A stretch of 64,000 bases of DNA from Chitinophagaceae bacterium IBVUCB2 (lineage in GTDB: Bacteria; Bacteroidota; Bacteroidia; Chitinophagales; Chitinophagaceae), in the NCBI GenBank assembly GCA_002127295.1, contig NFUV01000001.1, positions 2,056,538 through 2,120,537 on the forward strand. The letters are read 5' to 3'. Below, piece after piece: positions 12,350-20,341 of this stretch. The position numbers and the translations under genes were made by a program. The notes beneath the pieces were generated by a model. The model was not told the DNA's origin, did no database searches, and worked only from the letters and a program-made list of their open reading frames with translations. How positions within the stretch are numbered: the stretch's first letter is position 1; the number at the start of each line of letters is the position of its first letter.

Positions 12350-12815
12350 ACCACAGAATGCACAGATTAATACACAGAAAACACAGATATTAATGTATTA
12401 GACGTTTTATCCCTTTCTTTAAGTCTGCTACATTAAAATTTATAAGCAAACCTACTTTAGATTGGGTTAATTTCAAATAAGTCAATACTTGTGCGGTGTG
12501 TACATCTGTTAGTGCCTCAACAGACTTTATTTCTACTATAACTTTTCTTTCTACAAATAGGTCTAACCGATATCCAATATCAAGCTTTACTTCTTCGTAA
12601 AGGAGTGGCAACGCTTTTTCTTTTTCAACGAATAACCCCTCTTTTGTTAAAACATAATAAAGACATTCTTTATAAGAACTTTCTAACAAACCAGGCCCAA
12701 GCTCCGAGTGTACTTTAAAAGAAGCGCCGATAATCTTTCCCGTTATTTCATTTATTTCTTCTAAACTGTGCAATCTGTGCAATCTGTGCTATATTAAATC
12801 TGAGTAATCCGTGGT
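12350..12815 (-). mobile_element. GxxExxY cassette A with terminal inverted repeats
   Basis: The left terminus ACCACAGAATGCACAGATTA (12350-12369, + strand) and right terminus ACCACGGATTACTCAGATTT (12796-12815, - strand) are inverted, 15 of 20 bases identical. Both match the termini of cassette B. Extra CACAGA(TT) units fill the inner flanks. The unit occupies the whole gap between kdsB (stop 12823) and kdnB (start 12337), in the same direction. No transposase is encoded, and no target duplication is obvious. Confidence 0.65.
12390..12782 (-). CDS. GxxExxY family protein, PD-(D/E)XK-like
   Basis: A 130-residue protein with the family signature GLLESSY (residues 31-37) and a restriction-endonuclease-like core: RLDLFVERKVIVEIK, with Asp74 and Glu84-x-Lys86, then Gln98 in AQVLTYLKL. 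The nuclease fold is known for the family; activity and substrate are not. No ATG is available: a TAG precedes, and the only starts are TTG at 12782 or 12773, inside the CACAGATTG repeats of the cassette terminus. It lies co-directionally between kdsB and kdnB and is unrelated to Kdo metabolism. Confidence 0.85.
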   Translation of the reverse strand: MHRLHSLEEINEITGKIIGASFKVHSELGPGLLESSYKECLYYVLTKEGLFVEKEKALPLLYEEVKLDIGYRLDLFVERKVIVEIKSVEALTDVHTAQVLTYLKLTQSKVGLLINFNVADLKKGIKRLIH

Positions 12816-12822
12816 TAAACTA

Positions 12823-13539
12823 TTAAAGAAGCTTCGCTGCTTTTTCCAAATCCTCCGGCGTATCAATTTCAACTCCCATATAGTCTACGATGATCATGCG
12901 AAGCGGGATACCATTTTCCAAATAGCGGAGACATTCAACTTTTTCAGCGGCTTCCAGCGGCGTTACCGGCCATTGCGTAAAACTCATTAATGCCTGCTTG
13001 CGGAAAGCATATACGCCAATGTGTTCGTAATAGGTAGTAGGAAAATTATTATCTCTGGGGTAAGGAATCACCGAACGACTGAAGAATAAGGAATTCATAT
13101 TCTTATCCACCGCCACTTTTACAAAATTAGGATCCATGATGTCGTTATGGTCAGTTAATACCTGCATCATGGAAGCCACTTGTACAGCATTATCATTAAA
13201 CTGAGCTAACAATTTTTGCAAAGGCTCTCTTTTTACAAAAGGAGTATCGCCCTGTACGTTCACAATTATATCAACATCCATATCAGCTGCTGCTTCTGCT
13301 ATTCTATCACTACCACTTTCATGTTCGTTCTTACTCATAAGGGCCCTACCCCCGGCATTTGTGATCTCCGAATAAATAATATCGCTGTCGGTAACTACTA
13401 CCACCTCATCAAAAAGACCGGTGGCTATTGTTGCATCGTAAGTATGGCGAATTACAGTTTTGTCTCCCAATAACTGCATCAGTTTGGCAGGAAATCTTGT
13501 AGCAGCGAACCGTGCCGGTATCATGGCGATCTTCTTCAT
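12823..13539 (-). CDS. kdsB: 3-deoxy-manno-octulosonate cytidylyltransferase
   Basis: KdsB activates Kdo (or 8-amino-Kdo) to its CMP sugar for lipid A core assembly, in the cytosol. The 238-residue protein shows the nucleotide-binding start MIPARFAATRFPAKLMQLL, the VNVQGDTPFV metal/CMP motif near residue 95, EHIGVYAFRKQAL, and the terminal VEIDTPEDLEKA. The natural downstream partner is kdnB on the same strand, now separated by a GxxExxY cassette. That neighbour raises the possibility that the substrate is the 8-amino sugar, but residues deciding this cannot be judged here. Confidence 0.95.
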   Translation of the reverse strand: MKKIAMIPARFAATRFPAKLMQLLGDKTVIRHTYDATIATGLFDEVVVVTDSDIIYSEITNAGGRALMSKNEHESGSDRIAEAAADMDVDIIVNVQGDTPFVKREPLQKLLAQFNDNAVQVASMMQVLTDHNDIMDPNFVKVAVDKNMNSLFFSRSVIPYPRDNNFPTTYYEHIGVYAFRKQALMSFTQWPVTPLEAAEKVECLRYLENGIPLRMIIVDYMGVEIDTPEDLEKAAKLL

Positions 13540-13548
13540 GCGGTAAAA

Positions 13549-14325
13549 TTACACCCCAGCACTGATAGAAATGACTAACTGGTTTTCCAATATATACATT
13601 TCAAATTCATAATAGGCGCCATCTTCATAACCTATTCTTATCTTTTCAATAGAAAAAGGGCCCGCATAATCTGCTTCCTCAACTCGTTTGCGCAATTCTA
13701 TTTCATATTCTCTCTCTCCCTTTTTAAACTTTTTACTGGTCGTTGGAAATTCATCTTTTTCACCAAACACTTCCTGAAACTGGGTGATAAGCCGGCAGAG
13801 CAGAAAACCCTGCTGCAAACCAAAACCGGGTAAAAAATAAGTATCGGAACCATATTCATAACCGTTGAATTCCTGGTGTTCCGCCCCGTTTTTATAAAGT
13901 TGTTTCTTTAACTCCCATCCGCTTTCAGTCATCTCGGCTGTTTTTCCGGAACGGATTATTAGTTGCTGGCCAAAAGGTGCAGCTACCTGGGCCAGGTATT
14001 GTTTCATATCTTTTACCGTGGCGAGTTTTGGCGGAGGCCAGGGGAATAAATAACTGTCAACGATATAACCAGTCTTGTTATTAAACTTCACTTTTCTCCA
14101 ATAACCTGTCAAGCCCTCGGTAATAATTTCCTTCCAACCGCCATCTTCATCTATTAAGCTAATTTTTGTTCCATAAGGAATTTTATCAAGCACCTTAGCA
14201 TTAGCATCAGCGGTTTCACGAATGCTTAAGCCGGATTTTGCTGCTACATACATTATGCGGTCAAAAACCTGTGACCAACTGTTGATTGAAACAAGAACAA
14301 GAACGAGTAAAAAGAATTTCCTCAT
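13549..14325 (-). CDS. Secreted bacterial SH3-domain protein
   Basis: A 258-residue protein with a signal peptide (1-18, cleavage near SWSQ). Residues ~22-95 resemble a bacterial SH3 (SH3b) domain: YVAAKSGLSIRETADANAKV, IPYGTKISLID, a GYWRKVKF turn and KTGYIVDSYLF. Such domains usually bind cell-wall peptides. The C-terminal ~150 residues are not recognised. The stop lies just 9 bases before kdsB, so the genes could share a transcript, but a functional link is not evident. Confidence 0.75.
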   Translation of the reverse strand: MRKFFLLVLVLVSINSWSQVFDRIMYVAAKSGLSIRETADANAKVLDKIPYGTKISLIDEDGGWKEIITEGLTGYWRKVKFNNKTGYIVDSYLFPWPPPKLATVKDMKQYLAQVAAPFGQQLIIRSGKTAEMTESGWELKKQLYKNGAEHQEFNGYEYGSDTYFLPGFGLQQGFLLCRLITQFQEVFGEKDEFPTTSKKFKKGEREYEIELRKRVEEADYAGPFSIEKIRIGYEDGAYYEFEMYILENQLVISISAGV

Positions 14326-14347
14326 ATTGTGTGATTGTAAAGATTGA

Positions 14348-15172
14348 TCAGCTATCCAACTTTTGAAAAGGTTTTTTAAGAAGACTCAGTACATCTTCAT
14401 CTTTTTCGGCGGGATAATAACGGTCGAGACCGTAGCGGATTTCTTTGGTATCCAGTTTTCCAAAAGTTCCTAATAATCTATCCCAGATAGAAAACACAGC
14501 ACCATAATTAGTATCTGTATAAGGCTGCTTCCAGTGGTGATGTACTTTATGCATATTGGGAGAAATAAGAACGTAGCTCAACGCAGCATCTAATTTTTTT
14601 GGCAGACTGATATTTGCATGGGTAAAGGCAGTGGCAATTACTACCAGTGTCTGGTAAATCATTACACTATACATAGGAGCACCAGAGATAAAAATAAAAA
14701 TGATAAAGAAAATACCTCTTAATAAACTATCACCGGGATGATGACGCAAACCTGTTGTTACATCAACATTGGTATCGCTATGATGAACAAGATGAAAACG
14801 CCAAAGTAACGGCACTTTATGCATTACCAAATGCACCAGCCAGCTGCTGAAATCCAATGCCAGCACACCAATGATCACCGTGAGCAATACATTGGCATTA
14901 AACCAATACACCAAACCAAAGCCGTTATGCAAACACCAATCGGAAAGCAGTATAATTAATACTGCCAGCCCCGTATGAACGATAAGATGGATAACCGTGA
15001 AAACAAAATTTACTCCTGCATGGCGAAGCTTATTTTTTTTGTAGCGGAGTGAAATCAGCGGTATAGCCCCTTCAATAATCCAGAAGAATAATAAACCACC
15101 AACAAGAATGGCCATTCTCTCCAGGGGTCGTTGTTCAAGGGTTTGGAAATGTTCAATAATGCTATCCCACAT
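14348..15172 (-). CDS. Sterol desaturase / fatty acid hydroxylase family membrane protein
   Basis: A 274-residue integral membrane protein of the di-iron hydroxylase superfamily. Histidine boxes are visible: HLVMH (114-118), HLVHH (127-131), HH at 144-145 and MHKVHHH near residue 205. Several hydrophobic helices occur at ~22-42, 55-78, 95-112 and 152-185. Bacterial members hydroxylate or desaturate sterol-like, carotenoid or lipid substrates; the substrate here is unknown. It starts with ATG at 15172. The 13549 gene follows on the same strand after 22 bases, so both may be cotranscribed. Confidence 0.88.
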   Translation of the reverse strand: MWDSIIEHFQTLEQRPLERMAILVGGLLFFWIIEGAIPLISLRYKKNKLRHAGVNFVFTVIHLIVHTGLAVLIILLSDWCLHNGFGLVYWFNANVLLTVIIGVLALDFSSWLVHLVMHKVPLLWRFHLVHHSDTNVDVTTGLRHHPGDSLLRGIFFIIFIFISGAPMYSVMIYQTLVVIATAFTHANISLPKKLDAALSYVLISPNMHKVHHHWKQPYTDTNYGAVFSIWDRLLGTFGKLDTKEIRYGLDRYYPAEKDEDVLSLLKKPFQKLDS

Positions 15173-15227
15173 CGTTAGCTATTTTCAGTTAAAAGGTACG
15201 AAGGAAAACAATAGAATTATGTCCTGT

Positions 15228-15635
15228 TCAATTTTCTAACATTTCTTCAGCAAATTCGTTTCCACAATCAAAACAATGATTAACAGTTTCCACAGCCATA
15301 GCAAAATTGGTAAAGGAAAAAGTAAGTAAAGCACTAAGCCAGTTAGCAGCCTTGCGAGGGGTACTGACCACTTCAATATTATGAGAACCGCATGCCGGGC
15401 AAGTAATTTTTGCTTTATGGTCTAGTTGCAATTGTTTTAATATATCAAAAGCTTTCTTTGCCTCCGCTTCTTCCACCATTAGCTTAATTCCACCAACAGC
15501 ATTGGTAAGGATAGGGTCGATGGTAACCGTATTTTCATCCTTCAACCAGCATTTAAAACCATCTTCTTCCAGCCGGCCCATTGCAATATGTGCCGATACA
15601 TAATTATCATAGATCCAAACGGGTACAAATTTCAT
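15228..15635 (-). CDS. DUF2007-type protein with C-terminal zinc ribbon
   Basis: A 135-residue cytosolic protein. Residues 1-70 (VPVWIYDNYVSAHIAMGRLE, then GGIKLMVEEAEAKKAFDIL) match the DUF2007 putative signal-transducing fold. This is followed by a zinc ribbon with two pairs, CPACGSHN and CFDCGNEF. The hydrophobic segment WLSALLTFSFTNFAMAVE between the cysteine pairs is unusual and might contact membrane. The ligand and partners are unknown. It ends 55 bases upstream of the desaturase-like gene on the same strand. Confidence 0.8.
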   Translation of the reverse strand: MKFVPVWIYDNYVSAHIAMGRLEEDGFKCWLKDENTVTIDPILTNAVGGIKLMVEEAEAKKAFDILKQLQLDHKAKITCPACGSHNIEVVSTPRKAANWLSALLTFSFTNFAMAVETVNHCFDCGNEFAEEMLEN

Positions 15636-15646
15636 AATAGTTTTTA

Positions 15647-16402
15647 TTAACGGCCATATTCATCACCATACTCCTCTGCATATTTCTCATATCGTTTTAT
15701 CATGGTAATGTTTTTCTTTTCAATATCAGTAAGAAAACCTTTAATGTTGACCGTGTTGGGAACATACCAATCTTCATTCTCAAATTGCTGGCGCAAATGT
15801 TTTCGGTTAAAACAATAACCATGACGGGCAAAAATCTCATTGCGCATAAATTCCAGGTCTTCTTTCATTTCATTCTCTACATCTTCGGGTTTTAATAAGC
15901 GTTGCGAAGCCTGGGGGTAAGAGCCAACAGCAGGATTATACGTAAATTTTTTACGTTCCAAAGCAAAGGTCTTGGCGGGTTTTTTTGCATCGTTTGGTTT
16001 CCATGTACCACTCACTGCAACAGCATTCGATTCAGCGATTTCAAAATTAAAAACACCATCATCTTTATGATCGCCGGGTTCTTTAGCAGTTATAGAAAAG
16101 ATATTGCCATTTTTTACAATTGTTCCGGCAAAAGGCCTGTCATTACCACCAACAATAGAGCGGCCCACAACAGAATCCTTATCAGCACGGGTTATCAATA
16201 ATGTAATTTTATTATCACCAAAAGCACCTACAAAAGAGCCCAATAATGCTTCATAAATTGAAGGAGCAGGCGGTACTGTTGTAGCAGTAGTTGCAATAGC
16301 CGTATCATCTTTTACTTCTTTCTCTGAAGTACCGGCAGTTTTTTCATTATTACAGGCCAGCAAAAAAGAAACAGCCAGCAGCGAAAGCAAAAATTTTCTC
16401 AT
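15647..16402 (-). CDS. YARHG-domain lipoprotein
   Basis: The start is taken as ATG 16402, giving MRKFLLSLLAVSFLLACNNE with lipobox LLAC; a longer reading to 16537 would destroy the signal and collide with the divergent gene. The middle is a beta-rich lipoprotein body of unknown fold. The C-terminus has a YARHG domain (MRNEIFARHGYCFNRKHLRQ, with conserved aromatic residues through NEDWYVP), which is extracellular in known proteins. It is probably an outer-membrane or periplasmic lipoprotein. It ends 11 bases upstream of the DUF2007 gene start, suggesting an operon. Confidence 0.85.
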   Translation of the reverse strand: MRKFLLSLLAVSFLLACNNEKTAGTSEKEVKDDTAIATTATTVPPAPSIYEALLGSFVGAFGDNKITLLITRADKDSVVGRSIVGGNDRPFAGTIVKNGNIFSITAKEPGDHKDDGVFNFEIAESNAVAVSGTWKPNDAKKPAKTFALERKKFTYNPAVGSYPQASQRLLKPEDVENEMKEDLEFMRNEIFARHGYCFNRKHLRQQFENEDWYVPNTVNIKGFLTDIEKKNITMIKRYEKYAEEYGDEYGR

Positions 16403-16493
16403 GGTGAAAGGTTTAAATTTGTAAGAGGAGTTAATTAATGGTCTTTTAAAATTAGGACAAATAATCAGTCGCACAAACACCATAAATGCCGGC

Positions 16494-17123
16494 TTGCTAA
16501 TATTGCTGGCTTTCTTTTGCTGGCTAATGGCATCCATTACGATGGCCTATATCCCCTACAATACGGATGTTGGCTTTTTACGCATCAAACAACAATATAT
16601 CAGCATCGGTCACTGGCGAACGGCCTTCTTTATTCATGTATATGCAAGTATGTGGGTATTGTTTGCCGGGTTCACCCAGTTTTCAAAAGCCATACAAAGA
16701 AACCAACCCAAACTTCACCGCACACTCGGCTACATTTATGTAGCAGATGTTTTATTAATTACCGGCCCGGCAGGATTGTTAATGGGTTTTTATGCTAACG
16801 GCGGCTTATGGTCAAGAATTGCATTTGTTTTATTGGCGATACTGTGGATCTATTTCACTGCTATGGCATTGGTAAAAGCAAAACAAAAAAACTTCAAGGC
16901 GCATCGTAATTATATGATAAGAAGCTATGCACTTACCTTGTCCGCTATTACATTAAGAGCATGGAAATATGCAATCACTAATACGGTCACCCTTCCGCCG
17001 ATGGATGTATACCGTGTAGTAGCATGGGTAGGCTGGGTTGGAAATTTAGCATTTGCCGAGTGGCTCATCTTCCGCCATAAACAAAAACAAGCGTATAAAA
17101 AAAGAAGCCCACAAATATTGTGA
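16494..17123 (+). CDS. DUF2306-like integral membrane protein
   Basis: A membrane protein with about five helices, a GHWRTAFFIHVYASMWVLFA segment and HRTLGYIYVADVLL, resembling the DUF2306 family of predicted membrane proteins, whose conserved histidines could bind heme. The role is not established. The start is uncertain: TTG at 16494 is the first conventional start, but the frame stays open upstream (…QIISRTNTINAGLLILLAFF) and the natural N-terminus may be about 15 residues longer with a non-standard codon. The 3' end carries the dnaN terminator on the opposite strand. Confidence 0.75.
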   Translation: MLILLAFFCWLMASITMAYIPYNTDVGFLRIKQQYISIGHWRTAFFIHVYASMWVLFAGFTQFSKAIQRNQPKLHRTLGYIYVADVLLITGPAGLLMGFYANGGLWSRIAFVLLAILWIYFTAMALVKAKQKNFKAHRNYMIRSYALTLSAITLRAWKYAITNTVTLPPMDVYRVVAWVGWVGNLAFAEWLIFRHKQKQAYKKRSPQIL

Positions 17124-17128
17124 GCTTC
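17096..17128 (-). terminator. dnaN terminator on the minus strand
   Basis: Read on the minus strand, GAAGCTCACAA / TTGTGGGCTTC (17118-17128 and 17104-17114, 10 of 11 paired) is followed by TTTTTTT. It serves the minus-strand dnaN transcript and overlaps the last codons of the + strand DUF2306-like gene. Confidence 0.7.
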
Positions 17129-17171
17129 CAAATTCATTTCAAATCTTATTGATCAATTAAATCAGTGGTCT

Positions 17172-18287
17172 TTATTGATTCAGCATCAATGGCATCACCA
17201 GCATCAACAACTCTTCATTATCATCCAGGTCAGTTGGTTTAATGATACCAGCTTTAGTTGGAGTAGATAATTCCATATTAATATCATCGCTGTCAGCCGC
17301 ATTCAGCATTTCAATTAAGAAACGGGCATTGAAGGCGATCATCAGGTCTTCTCCGTTGTACTGGCACTTCATTCTTTCGTTTCCTTCAAAGCTAAAGTCT
17401 ACATCTTGTGCTGCTAATTGTAATTCGCTGCCGCTAATGCTCAATGCAACCTGGTTAGTACTCTTATTACTAAATACACTTACACGACGCAGTGCACTTT
17501 GAAAATCATTTTTATTCACCGTTAAGCGATAAGGATTGTCCGCAGGAATCACCACTTTATAATCCGGGAAACGGGCATCTATCAGGCGACAACTCATTTG
17601 AGTAGTGCCATGTTTTATAAAAAGATGATTGCTGTTGTAGCTGATTGTGATCTCATCTTCGGAAGAAGGGATCGCTGTTTTTACAAGATTCAGTGGCTTG
17701 CGGGGAACGATGAATGAATCCGCTTTCGGACATTTTACATCAGTTCTTTTATAACGAACCAGGCGATGAGCATCTGTAGCCACACATTGAAAACCTTTTT
17801 TATCCAGCTCAAAGAAAACACCCGTCATGGCCGGACGCAGATCATCGTTACTGGTAGCAAACAATGTTTTGCTGATAGCCGTTACCAATGCCGAAGCTGT
17901 CATGGTAAACGAAGTAGTGTCATCAGCAGCCGGTTCTTTTGGAAAGTTGTCCGGGTTTTCGCCCATCACTTTATACTTACCATTGTCGCTGGTAATTTCC
18001 ACGCCAAAATTTTTATCTATGTTGAAGGTCAGGGGCTGATCAGCAATATTCTTTAATGAATCCATCAGGATCTTTGCCGGAATACAAACCTTACCGCTGT
18101 CTTTAGCTTCAATATCCAACTGCACCCGCATCACAGTTTCCAGGTCGGTAGCAACTACGGTCAGCTTGTTTTTTTCTACTTCAAACAAAAAATCTTCAAG
18201 GATAGGGAGCACCGTGTTAGCATTAATAACACCGGAGATATGCTGCAGTTGTTTCAGCAAAGAAGAAGAGGATGCTATGAACTTCAT
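17172..18287 (-). CDS. dnaN: DNA polymerase III sliding clamp (beta subunit)
   Basis: DnaN forms the ring clamp that tethers DNA polymerase III to DNA. Start ATG 18287 (MKFIASSSSLLKQLQHISGV) is chosen over an in-frame start at 18338, because all beta clamps begin with the MKF.. strand; the result is 371 residues, normal length. Typical blocks are VLPILEDFLFEV, AKILMDSLKNI, FVVPRKPLNL-like FIVPRKPLNL, and the C-terminal MLVMPLMLN (family usually MPMRL). dnaA and recF are not adjacent, which is common in Bacteroidota. It is monocistronic, with its own promoter and terminator. Confidence 0.96.
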   Translation of the reverse strand: MKFIASSSSLLKQLQHISGVINANTVLPILEDFLFEVEKNKLTVVATDLETVMRVQLDIEAKDSGKVCIPAKILMDSLKNIADQPLTFNIDKNFGVEITSDNGKYKVMGENPDNFPKEPAADDTTSFTMTASALVTAISKTLFATSNDDLRPAMTGVFFELDKKGFQCVATDAHRLVRYKRTDVKCPKADSFIVPRKPLNLVKTAIPSSEDEITISYNSNHLFIKHGTTQMSCRLIDARFPDYKVVIPADNPYRLTVNKNDFQSALRRVSVFSNKSTNQVALSISGSELQLAAQDVDFSFEGNERMKCQYNGEDLMIAFNARFLIEMLNAADSDDINMELSTPTKAGIIKPTDLDDNEELLMLVMPLMLNQ

Positions 18288-18305
18288 ATTAATAATTGAA
18301 TGTGG

Positions 18306-18335
18306 CGAAACTACTGATTTTTGCCATACAGCCAA
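18306..18335 (-). promoter_or_regulatory. Putative dnaN promoter
   Basis: On the minus strand TTGG (18332-18335) is followed after 18 bases by TAGTTTCG (18306-18313), close to the Bacteroidota -33 TTTG / -7 TAnnTTTG pattern. It lies about 20 bases before the dnaN ATG, giving a very short leader. Confidence 0.4.
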
Positions 18336-18566
18336 CACTTAAAACGGGCTGAAAACGGGTTAAATATTTTGTTTTCCAGCGTTCTGTTCCCTGCGCATCG
18401 TTCCTTGCGTCGCACTCTTCAAGGTTCTGTCCGCTGCTCAGCAATTACGAACACCCCGAACAAAATTGAAAAACCCGAAACTTCAGGAATCTACCGATTA
18501 CCGACTCCTTACTCTCCACTCTTCAAAGAACCTTTTTAGTATCTTGCCTATTCACAAAATCCAACT

Positions 18567-19886
18567 ATGCTCGATAAATTGTTTGGCTGGGGAAAGAAGA
18601 AAGAAGTACCGAAAGCAGGACCGGAAATACCATTTGGCCGTTACTCAGATAATAATAAGCCCCTGGCAAAAGTAAACCGCTGGACGGATGCGGATAATCT
18701 ATACAAAGAGAAAAAATATCCTGAAAGCATTGATGCTTTTTTTGAATATCTCCGGGACGATACTATACAAAACGTAGTGTATGAAAGAAATGGCGCCGAA
18801 GGCCGGTTTGAAGTATTCCAGGGTTCTAAAATTGTACGGGGCAGTATTGCTAACGGCAGAATAAATGCGGAAGTGACATTAGCTAAAATGCCACAAGCAT
18901 CCGTGCCGGTTATGCGCCGCCTGCTCGAAATGAATTTTAATTTATACTACAGCCGTTTTGCATTGGATAACGACCGGCTTTGCATGCGGTTTGATAGCGG
19001 AATAGATGCAGCAAGCCCAAGTAAACTATACTACGGACTAAAAGAGCTGGCCATTAAAGCCGACAAACAGGATGATCTGTTAGTGCAGGATTTTACCACA
19101 CTGCAAACAGCCGATAATGAGCATGTCACTATTTCTCCCGTAGAGGAAAAAGAAATAAAATATGAGTACCTGCAAAAATGGATTCAACAGGTGCTGGATA
19201 CGGCATCTGCAATGGATGCAGATAAATTTTCCGGCGGTATTGCATATATGTTGCTGGCTTTGATTTACCGGATCGATTATTTAATAACTCCCGAAGGAAA
19301 ATTATTGCATGAGCTGGAAAAAATAACCGGTATCTATTTTAAAAAAGATGAAAGGCCTGTTACCGAAAAGAACAGGGATATGATCGAAGAGTTTAAAAAA
19401 TTAAAAGAACGGCCCAAAGAAGATATTTTTAATTATCTCTTTCACTCCAAATATACATTTGCCATTGTAGCACCGCAGGCTTACAAAGCGATCAGCGATT
19501 CTATTCATGTGGCCAACCAGAATATGGTCTGGTACCGGGATAATAATTATCCTTTTATCGCATCACAGATCGCAGAGTATGGAATTTCATATTGCCAGTA
19601 CTCCTACAGTTTGCCTAAAGTAATAACCGAGTTATTTCATTTATATATGAAAATTAATTACTCGGAATATTTTACAGCTTTAGGCTACACCAACATTCCA
19701 TACGATGCAGCCCGCAATAAATTTTATTCGGAAGAAATAACAGATAGAATAAAAGAGATACAATCAAAGTGGAGAGACAAATATCCAAACATGGATTTCA
19801 AAACCCAGAACCTACGTTTTGATACATTAGTGAATTTTGATTTGACATTTACCAATGAAATAGAATTTTTAAATATGGAAAGCTAA
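18567..19886 (+). CDS. YbjN-like domain protein, 439 aa
   Basis: A cytosolic protein without signal peptide or membrane helix. Residues ~55-165 (GRFEVFQGSKIVRGSIANGR, VPVMRRLLEMNFNLYYSRFA, YYGLKELAIKADKQDDLL) resemble the YbjN/type III-chaperone-like fold. The remaining ~270 residues are helical and unrecognised. The next functional gene is a protease that also ends in a YbjN-like domain, so the two may act together; this is inference from context and shared fold. A GxxExxY cassette now lies between them, its left terminus overlapping the last base of this stop codon. The start ATG at 18567 follows TATCTTGCC, a weak -7-like element. Confidence 0.65.
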   Translation: MLDKLFGWGKKKEVPKAGPEIPFGRYSDNNKPLAKVNRWTDADNLYKEKKYPESIDAFFEYLRDDTIQNVVYERNGAEGRFEVFQGSKIVRGSIANGRINAEVTLAKMPQASVPVMRRLLEMNFNLYYSRFALDNDRLCMRFDSGIDAASPSKLYYGLKELAIKADKQDDLLVQDFTTLQTADNEHVTISPVEEKEIKYEYLQKWIQQVLDTASAMDADKFSGGIAYMLLALIYRIDYLITPEGKLLHELEKITGIYFKKDERPVTEKNRDMIEEFKKLKERPKEDIFNYLFHSKYTFAIVAPQAYKAISDSIHVANQNMVWYRDNNYPFIASQIAEYGISYCQYSYSLPKVITELFHLYMKINYSEYFTALGYTNIPYDAARNKFYSEEITDRIKEIQSKWRDKYPNMDFKTQNLRFDTLVNFDLTFTNEIEFLNMES

Positions 19887-20341
19887 CCGCTGATTGCACT
19901 GATTTAAATGAGTGGAATGATAAATGAGGCCTATAAATATTCAGACATAACTGCTAAAGTAATCGGCTGTGCAATGAAAGTGCATCAAAAAATGCGCAAT
20001 GGCTATCAAGAACTGATTTATCAGCGTTGTCTTATAATTGAATTAAATAAAGAGGGCATAGGATTTAAACAAGAAATGGAATTACCTATATTTTATGACG
20101 GAATCGAGGTCGGTAAGCGACGAGTGGACTTTTTAATAGAGAATAAAGTAGTGGTAGAAATAAAAGCCGTTACAGAACTAACAGATGCCTATTTAGCGCA
20201 GGCATTAAATTATTTAGAAGCCCTGAATCTTGAAATAGGTTTATTAATAAACTTCGGGTCAAAAAGCGTAGAGATAAAAAGGATAATTAATAACAAGTAT
20301 ACACCATCATTCAAATCAAACTAATCAAAGCAATCAGTGGT
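19886..20341 (+). mobile_element. GxxExxY cassette B with terminal inverted repeats
   Basis: The left terminus ACCGCTGATTGCACTGATTT (19886-19905) and the inverted right terminus ACCACTGATTGCTTTGATTA (20322-20341, minus strand) match at 16 of 20 bases. They match cassette A termini at 15 of 20. The left arm shares one base with the upstream stop codon. The right arm contains the GxxExxY stop codon and ends one base before the protease ATG. The unit exactly fills the gap between two genes on the same strand. Confidence 0.68.
19908..20324 (+). CDS. GxxExxY family protein, PD-(D/E)XK-like
   Basis: A 138-residue protein with the signature GYQELIY (residues 32-38) and the same nuclease-like core as cassette A at the same positions: RRVDFLIENKVVVEIK, Asp74 and Glu84-x-Lys86, then Gln98 in AQALNYLEAL. 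By eye it is only about 40% identical to the 12390-12782 protein, so the two are not a recent duplication. Alternative starts are ATG 19908 or 19917. It is bounded by the cassette inverted repeats and interrupts a YbjN-like/protease gene pair. Nuclease activity is plausible from the fold but undemonstrated. Confidence 0.87.
   Translation: MSGMINEAYKYSDITAKVIGCAMKVHQKMRNGYQELIYQRCLIIELNKEGIGFKQEMELPIFYDGIEVGKRRVDFLIENKVVVEIKAVTELTDAYLAQALNYLEALNLEIGLLINFGSKSVEIKRIINNKYTPSFKSN

Follow-up and report, generated by a model that had tools for sequence, protein, structure and literature searches.

The closest described counterparts of the loci considered here are small elements in which one gene lies between its own repeats. 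In PMC3733652, this organization is described for REPtrons, which combine a RAYT gene with repetitive extragenic palindromic (REP) sequences, and for TIRtrons. In PMC4990558, the intervening sequence in Coxiella 23S rRNA is described as carrying an S23p open reading frame (ORF), tandem heptamers before this ORF, and terminal inverted repeats that form a stem. The genes examined here are two GxxExxY genes in a 64,000-nucleotide stretch of the Chitinophagaceae bacterium IBVUCB2 genome (contig NFUV01000001.1; G000:C1:2056538-2120537 in our numbering), which as a whole is called the window. A search of this genome detected two GxxExxY genes, both inside the window. Each occupies a unit of ~0.46 kb with one gene and would be the single gene of a small chromosomal insertion element of an apparently undescribed, transposase-free kind. 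Judging from sequence comparisons, it is reasonably likely that the element is REPtron-like and lacks a transposase, comprising a Cas4-like nuclease and unit arrays recognized by that nuclease. The comparisons support its architecture and generality, the agreement of its ends with each other and with the protein clade, and its insertion relative to most relatives examined. They also support the scattering of gene-less copies, mainly in genomes that carry the gene, together with purifying selection and invariant catalytic residues.

A sequence-only reading of the window had placed each gene between inverted ends of 20 bp. All four ends lie where it located them (Table 1), and their pairwise identities are as given there, 15/20 in five pairs and 16/20 in one. 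At up to three mismatches, the consensus from that reading matches the window 8 times versus 2.00 times (standard deviation 1.53) in shuffles, a count that is not independent because the consensus was derived from the same four ends. The two ends of element 1 align with 35 identical positions over 47 (p 0.01), and the inner repeat units at its upstream end extend into the 5′ end of the listed GxxExxY ORF, for which the listed start is TTG and the true start is uncertain. The end pair of element 2 is not significant by itself (p 0.19); support for its ends comes from a comparison of occupied and empty orthologous sites. As the same reading had stated, neither element contains a transposase: the only ORF inside each is GxxExxY by NCBIfam and Pfam searches.

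Table 1. Coordinates of the two GxxExxY elements and their parts in the window (position 1 is its first nucleotide).
Feature	Positions	Strand	Remarks
Element 1, GxxExxY gene with inverted ends	12350..12815	-	Flanked by kdsB-like and kdnB-like genes
Element 1 end, gene-downstream side	12350..12369	+	Outer sequence TTTTTTACCAC...; 0 mismatches to the earlier consensus
Element 1 end, gene-upstream side	12796..12815	-	Outer sequence TTTAACCACGG...; 0 mismatches to the earlier consensus
Element 1, inner repeat units of the upstream end	12762..12790	-	Two overlapping consensus matches, with 3 and 2 mismatches
GxxExxY protein 1 (TIGR04256, PF13366), 130 aa	12390..12782	-	147.1 bits to TIGR04256; AlphaFold2 (AF2) model
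Element 2, GxxExxY gene with inverted ends	19884..20341	+	Flanked by YbjN-like and protease-like genes
Element 2 end, gene-upstream side	19886..19905	+	0 mismatches to the earlier consensus; orthologous-site comparison
Element 2 end, gene-downstream side	20322..20341	-	0 mismatches to the earlier consensus; orthologous-site comparison
GxxExxY protein 2 (TIGR04256, PF13366), 138 aa	19908..20324	+	140.9 bits to TIGR04256

The window observation is real and much more general. GxxExxY genes occur in 75/117 genomes of the host's family, from which 71 loci with 74 genes, both window genes included, were sampled. For each gene, the 150-bp upstream flank was aligned to the reverse-complemented 150-bp downstream flank, and the score was set against dinucleotide shuffles; three of the 74 genes were dropped for short flanks. 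Matching inverted ends were found at 42 of the 71 testable genes at p<=0.01 and at 49 at p<=0.05; the 71 count one gene twice, as L059 and L068. Redundancy slightly inflates the sample sizes of the analysis in general, since the L063 and L160 genes are identical and those of L176 and L195 nearly so. The median end score was 29, versus 16 for mismatched loci and 16 for other ORFs, the latter a small control of 27. A scan of one genome per species over 84,980 species was then sampled through the best 80 of 573 confirmed stretches. By record title, 67 of these 80 loci are from Bacteroidota and one is unplaced; Ignavibacteriota, Acidobacteriota, Balneolota, Planctomycetota, Chlorobiota, Verrucomicrobiota, Pseudomonadota, and a candidate division contribute one to three each. 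With four genes dropped, 44/76 have matching ends at p<=0.01 and 52/76 at p<=0.05, versus 5/168 and 16/168 control ORFs in the same loci. Inverted ends, which the sequence-only reading had proposed to look for around GxxExxY genes elsewhere, are thus a general property of these genes. Three loci (L065, L072, and L082) each hold two GxxExxY genes within a few kilobases of each other.

The ends are inverted arrays of short direct units with free spacers and no fixed terminal sequence. Examples of unit words are CACAGAG, CGCAAAG, CACAGAT, CTGAAC..GATT, and GCAGCG. Over 294 flanks, 5-mers recur 5.7 times as often as in shuffles at 9 bp, 4.0 times at 10 bp, and 4.6 times at 21 bp, spacings that correspond to roughly one and two DNA turns. 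One search expression captured 46 upstream and 55 downstream ends among 147 genes; the outer edges of these read TTAACC upstream and TTTT(A/T)ACC downstream. The unit word varies between loci and usually agrees at both ends of one locus. Flank similarity tracks protein similarity, with a Mantel correlation of 0.23 versus a maximum of 0.12 in 1000 permutations. When end types were assigned to 136 of 154 rows by eight self-made regular expressions and placed on the protein tree, 39 changes were required versus a mean of 70.1 and a minimum of 61 in 200 shuffles. This coupling of ends to protein can reflect common descent as one unit, functional matching, or both, and the sequence comparisons make it highly probable that ends and nuclease form a single unit and evolve jointly.

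These results do not bear out the single consensus end that had been proposed from the window; shared ends of that kind were rejected, as end sequence differs by protein clade. The deepest split of the protein tree separates the two window proteins, one in each of the two deepest clades, and the similarity of their ends is therefore no evidence of one recognition system. The resemblance of all four window ends appears to be common grammar or coincidence, and not the mark of one nuclease serving both elements. Homogenization of ends within a genome was also considered and not seen: across 25 pairs of dissimilar copies from the same genus code, the ends resemble each other no more than in pairs from different codes (p 0.42).

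Comparison with selected relatives from the 117 family genomes indicates that each window copy is inserted with respect to the majority of those examined, as the sequence-only reading had anticipated. At site 1, 16 relatives were chosen because both neighbors match on one contig. The kdsB-like and kdnB-like genes are 485 bp apart in the window and 17-157 bp apart in 11/16 relatives; the other five have spacers of 943-2635 bp, which were checked for the gene only. No GxxExxY hidden Markov model (HMM) match occurs at site 1 in any of the 16. At site 2, compared in 20 relatives (L360-L379), the YbjN-like and protease-like genes are separated by -4 to 160 bp, with no GxxExxY match, in 18/20. The two occupied cases, G086 (461 bp) and G038 (452 bp), belong to two other genera, and the gene was confirmed by HMM in both. 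In these two and in the window genome alike, the element's left end runs into the stop codon that closes the YbjN-like gene. Ends at the same site in strains without the gene, which the earlier reading had named as evidence against itself, were not seen by eye in the printed empty spacers of site 2 or in the short ones of site 1, with the possible exception of G109, where a stretch in the site 1 spacer could be a degenerate unit pair.

A third site, in genus g11, lies upstream of a gene that by its sequence resembles 3-hydroxyacyl-CoA dehydrogenase (3HCDH-like). Gene and repeats are missing together in 7/10 species of this one genus, and the GxxExxY gene is open in G010 and G123. In G118 it is in parts on two contigs of a 520-contig draft, which may reflect assembly rather than decay. 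The same site is occupied in two further genera (L054 and L061), and loss is therefore as likely as gain. A strongly conserved operator-like sequence near TTAGTTAGCTATGCAACTA is found upstream of the 3HCDH-like gene in the aligned species of genus g11 (L058, L290-L296, and L299), and the element sits between this sequence and the gene. At L297 (G123:C55:8000-9400), an element end and its adjoining sequence are present in tandem, a possible product of amplification or slippage. Occupied sites also recur between the two halves of an apparent metH (L037, L038, L046, L090, and L134), where the end type differs between genomes, and between apparent nuoF and nuoG (L039, L040, L044, L063, and L084).

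Copies of the ends without the gene, the solo termini that the sequence-only reading had suggested seeking, exist in the window genome, in G055, and in strict-pattern searches of the 117 genomes. In the whole window genome, the earlier consensus at up to two mismatches matches 23 sites, the four ends included, versus 2 for the reversed pattern. Two inverted end pairs, C1:234374-234446 and C1:235220-235291, have outer spans of 73 and 72 bp and bracket one gene; no GxxExxY similarity was found around them. Within the window, a lone terminus-like sequence with 3 mismatches, for which no partner was seen in the vicinity, lies at 17150-17169 (-), adjoining the 3′ end of a 388-aa ORF (17172-18338) that looks dnaN-like by eye. 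In G055, both ends of one element recur in ~30 regions, a hand count from 72 match rows of which several can fall on one site and some are coding paralogues or the element itself. Inspection of 26 rows showed that 2 are the element and that 24 have no GxxExxY similarity within ~600 bp; at 8 distinct sites, represented by 11 rows, inverted arms are paired over a span of 91-189 bp. The dispersed palindromes without a gene by which REPtrons are recognized, copied from the flanking repeat, are therefore present here, with one G055 element followed in detail. Used as a query, the upstream end of this element matches 41 places, itself included, in 9/117 genomes, all nine of which have the gene; these copy numbers are lower bounds, with at most seven candidates scored per genome.

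Across the family, a strict pattern built from the two commonest words finds 457 copies in the 75 gene-carrying genomes versus 40 in the 42 others, and is present in 47/75 versus 9/42 of them (Mann-Whitney p 6e-6, with no phylogenetic correction). Copy number correlates with gene number (Spearman 0.51), and the reversed pattern yields 10 copies in all. In 21 copy-rich genomes, at least 246 of 396 pattern copies cannot be ends of a gene copy; this bound leaves out G047 (7 copies, 5 genes), which would add nothing.

Both window proteins belong to the GxxExxY family, with 147.1 and 140.9 bits to TIGR04256 (cut-off 35) and 142.2 and 131.5 bits to PF13366 (cut-off 22). Their identity, estimated earlier by eye at about 40%, is 40%. 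The PD-(D/E)XK core that had been proposed (Asp74, Glu84, and Lys86) is invariant among 34 aligned sequences; 74/74 genes keep the D, E, and K of this core as well as the E of GxxExxY, and a glutamine follows in 73/74, giving the motif order E..D..ExK..Q. The AF2 model of protein 1 has a mean predicted local distance difference test score of 95.2. Its first three Foldseek hits in the PDB are two chains of SSO0001, which we take to be a Cas4, and lambda exonuclease. The PADLOC Cas4 and Cas4b models match weakly, with best E values of 2.1e-4 (protein 1) and 4.3e-4 (protein 2), and a sequence search for a solved relative found none, with one match at E 0.3. From its model and sequence, the protein thus appears to resemble Cas4 and lambda exonuclease weakly. 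Ratios of nonsynonymous to synonymous substitution (dN/dS) of 0.044, 0.086, and 0.142 in three close pairs with differences, at dS up to 0.63, support purifying selection on the gene.

These observations allow a life cycle to be proposed. The element would consist of an ORF for a Cas4/lambda-exonuclease-like PD-(D/E)XK nuclease between inverted unit arrays. The nuclease would bind one face of double-stranded DNA through several units, either at the two ends of an element or at a solo hairpin, and would cut where it is bound. Host repair would then place copies of the ends, now and then together with the gene, in new intergenic positions. Such a cycle would be like that of REPtrons and miniature inverted-repeat transposable elements (MITEs), with the nuclease in the place of the transposase. 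Gene-bearing copies would move rarely and then persist or be lost. That the element is mobile by its own agency is likely, and that the nuclease cuts its own ends is somewhat short of an even chance. Host transcription of the gene is probable, because it mostly reads in the same direction as neighbors that are themselves co-directional; two such neighbors flank 100 of 132 scored genes by crude ORF calls, with 22/154 unscored. The earlier suggestion of mobility is thus sustained in part: insertions, inverted ends, solo termini, and the lack of a transposase speak for it, whereas present-day movement and a single consensus do not emerge from the data. The element appears to be old, strongly selected, and slowly turning over, since two other genera carry the gene at site 2 and no two separate copies within either of two copy-rich genomes share more than 60% of aligned residues.

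Several observations weigh against this proposal. Nuclease binding, cutting, and self-driven movement are steps that we infer from sequence. The end-type labels depend on eight expressions made by the analyst, and joint inheritance of gene and ends alone would account for a large part of the coupling signal. The shuffle test errs somewhat on the liberal side, with 16/168 controls passing p<=0.05, and about one-third of loci (22/71 family and 24/76 scan genes) have no significant ends at p 0.05. None of 213 Foldseek matches reaches E 0.001; the best is 0.0057, and root-mean-square deviations for the first three are 9-16. The 3HCDH-like, nuoF-nuoG-like, metH-like, and YbjN-protease sites are each occupied in several genera, which fits an old insertion followed by losses as well as repeated insertion. 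A target-site duplication is not definable, as the empty sites are in other species or genera and their spacers are too diverged. Recent duplication within a genome was sought in copy-rich G086 and G038 and not found: no separate pair is more than 60% identical, the closest sharing at most 60% over 40 or 59% over 116 residues. The count of co-directional neighbors comes without a control. Nine genomes with no detected gene hold 1-13 strict-pattern copies (G016 13, G075 12, and G050 6), and the window genome has 0 hits to this pattern. A separate idea, spread on plasmids or phages, was rejected: matches to protein 1 occur in 8 of 72,556 plasmid and 0 of 50,697 phage records.

Purifying selection, retention of the same sites in several genera, and the predominance of co-directional neighbors (crude ORF calls, no control) would also be expected of a resident gene with autoregulatory sites, in which the repeats are operators for GxxExxY or a host factor, maintained on either side for regulation, and the dispersed copies form a regulon or chromosome-organizing sites. 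Such a gene would not readily account for the joint absence of gene and, by eye, repeats at empty sites, for solo copies that are paired inverted hairpins, for an insertion that reaches into a host stop codon, or for gene and repeat numbers that vary widely between genera, and we regard this explanation as unlikely. If, alternatively, a non-autonomous element were moved by an unlinked host transposase with the nuclease as cargo, the lack of a transposase in the element and the MITE-like look of the gene-less copies would follow, and PD-(D/E)XK proteins such as TnsA do work with a partner. An unlinked transposase is not expected to produce end types that track the nuclease clade, however, which makes this scenario rather unlikely.

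The same tracking of the protein tree argues against the view that dispersed REP-like repeats existed beforehand as landing sites, with the gene entering by recombination and the ends forming no part of an element. Some genomes, a few of which lack the gene, do hold many gene-less repeats, but the empty spacers at both window sites and at the 3HCDH-like site are repeat-free by eye, save the possible G109 pair, and this view is improbable. Pairing of the ends in the transcript, followed by RNase III cleavage as in 23S rRNA intervening sequences, would suit the mostly sense orientation between co-directional genes, and the intervening sequence described in PMC4990558 does have stem-forming terminal inverted repeats. 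An RNA stem was nonetheless rejected, with no wobble bias between ends: transitions compatible and incompatible with G-U pairing number 107 versus 107 over 101 loci (163 versus 168 with looser scoring). Conserved units with free spacers also suit protein sites on DNA better than a stem, and an RNA-level element is highly improbable. Protein binding to double-stranded DNA is favored because there is no G-U bias, the spacers are free, and unit spacing is near the helical turn.

A similar organization was found around a second family, the four-helix TIGR02436 proteins, whose genes occur in 45/60 genomes. In a sample of 31 loci, one of which was dropped for a short flank, 26/30 have inverted ends at p<=0.05. 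Their units are 7 bp, with recurrence 13, 19, 12, 6, and 5 times that of shuffles at 7, 14, 21, 28, and 35 bp, and GxxExxY words are scarce at these loci (0.3 versus 4.4 per locus). The TIGR02436 elements thus appear to share the same design as the GxxExxY elements, with 7-bp units. Unit sequence differs by locus among those examined, which include L030 (G000:C1:1406318-1406638) and L031 (G000:C1:1141938-1142252) in the window genome and L330-L358. S23p and TIGR02436 are presumably the same kind of protein. We tentatively suggest, with less than even confidence, that the GxxExxY and TIGR02436 elements represent a large class of bacterial elements without a transposase that has so far gone undescribed. 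Their small single-domain protein, a Cas4-like nuclease in the former and a four-helix protein in the latter, would mobilize itself and gene-less hairpins via inverted arrays of short phased units (9-10/21 bp and 7 bp) and would evolve together with these units; the 23S intervening sequences would be the one branch of the TIGR02436 group that happened to be noticed earlier.

Our results provide a likely setting for a common family of unknown function and a possible origin for short intergenic repeats scattered in these genomes, and they hint at the way in which rRNA intervening sequences came about. Should a lone Cas4-like nuclease be able to maintain and spread the ends, it would represent a route of rearrangement enzymatically distinct from known transposases, and the loci would offer many natural protein/DNA pairs with changed specificity. 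The published mentions of GxxExxY located in our literature search do not concern repeats, as far as the available texts go, and no description of the ends was met in the literature covered, most subscription journals and the NCBI model notes lying outside it.

Among known systems, the Cas4/lambda exonuclease branch of PD-(D/E)XK proteins resembles GxxExxY through weak first fold neighbors, motif order, and weak Cas4 HMM matches. Cas4 has conserved cysteines for an iron-sulfur cluster; in contrast, GxxExxY proteins are only ~130 aa, and no cysteine occurs among the invariant or nearly invariant columns of the alignment. The 23S rRNA intervening sequences with an S23p ORF, as described in PMC4990558, are likewise small one-ORF elements (428 nt) with terminal inverted repeats, and their tandem heptamers upstream of the ORF recall the TIGR02436 elements. 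They differ in residing in rRNA, in being removed by RNase III, and in encoding a protein family other than GxxExxY, whereas both window elements lie between protein-coding ORFs and encode TIGR04256 rather than S23p proteins. MITEs and insertion sequences share inverted ends and gene-less derivatives with the GxxExxY element, which, unlike insertion sequences, has no transposase gene and shows no target-site duplication in the diverged spacers compared. With respect to REPtrons, the enzyme is a PD-(D/E)XK nuclease in place of RAYT, an HUH/Y1 tyrosine transposase; no such transposase was found in the window elements, where GxxExxY/PDDEXK_3 gave the only NCBIfam and Pfam matches. The main GxxExxY end types are short-unit arrays that begin TTAACC or TTTTACC and lack the GTAG tag that marks REPtron repeats in PMC3733652. 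The likeness to REPtrons and TIRtrons as described there extends to dispersed gene-less palindromes and dimers and to repeat families that go with the enzyme.

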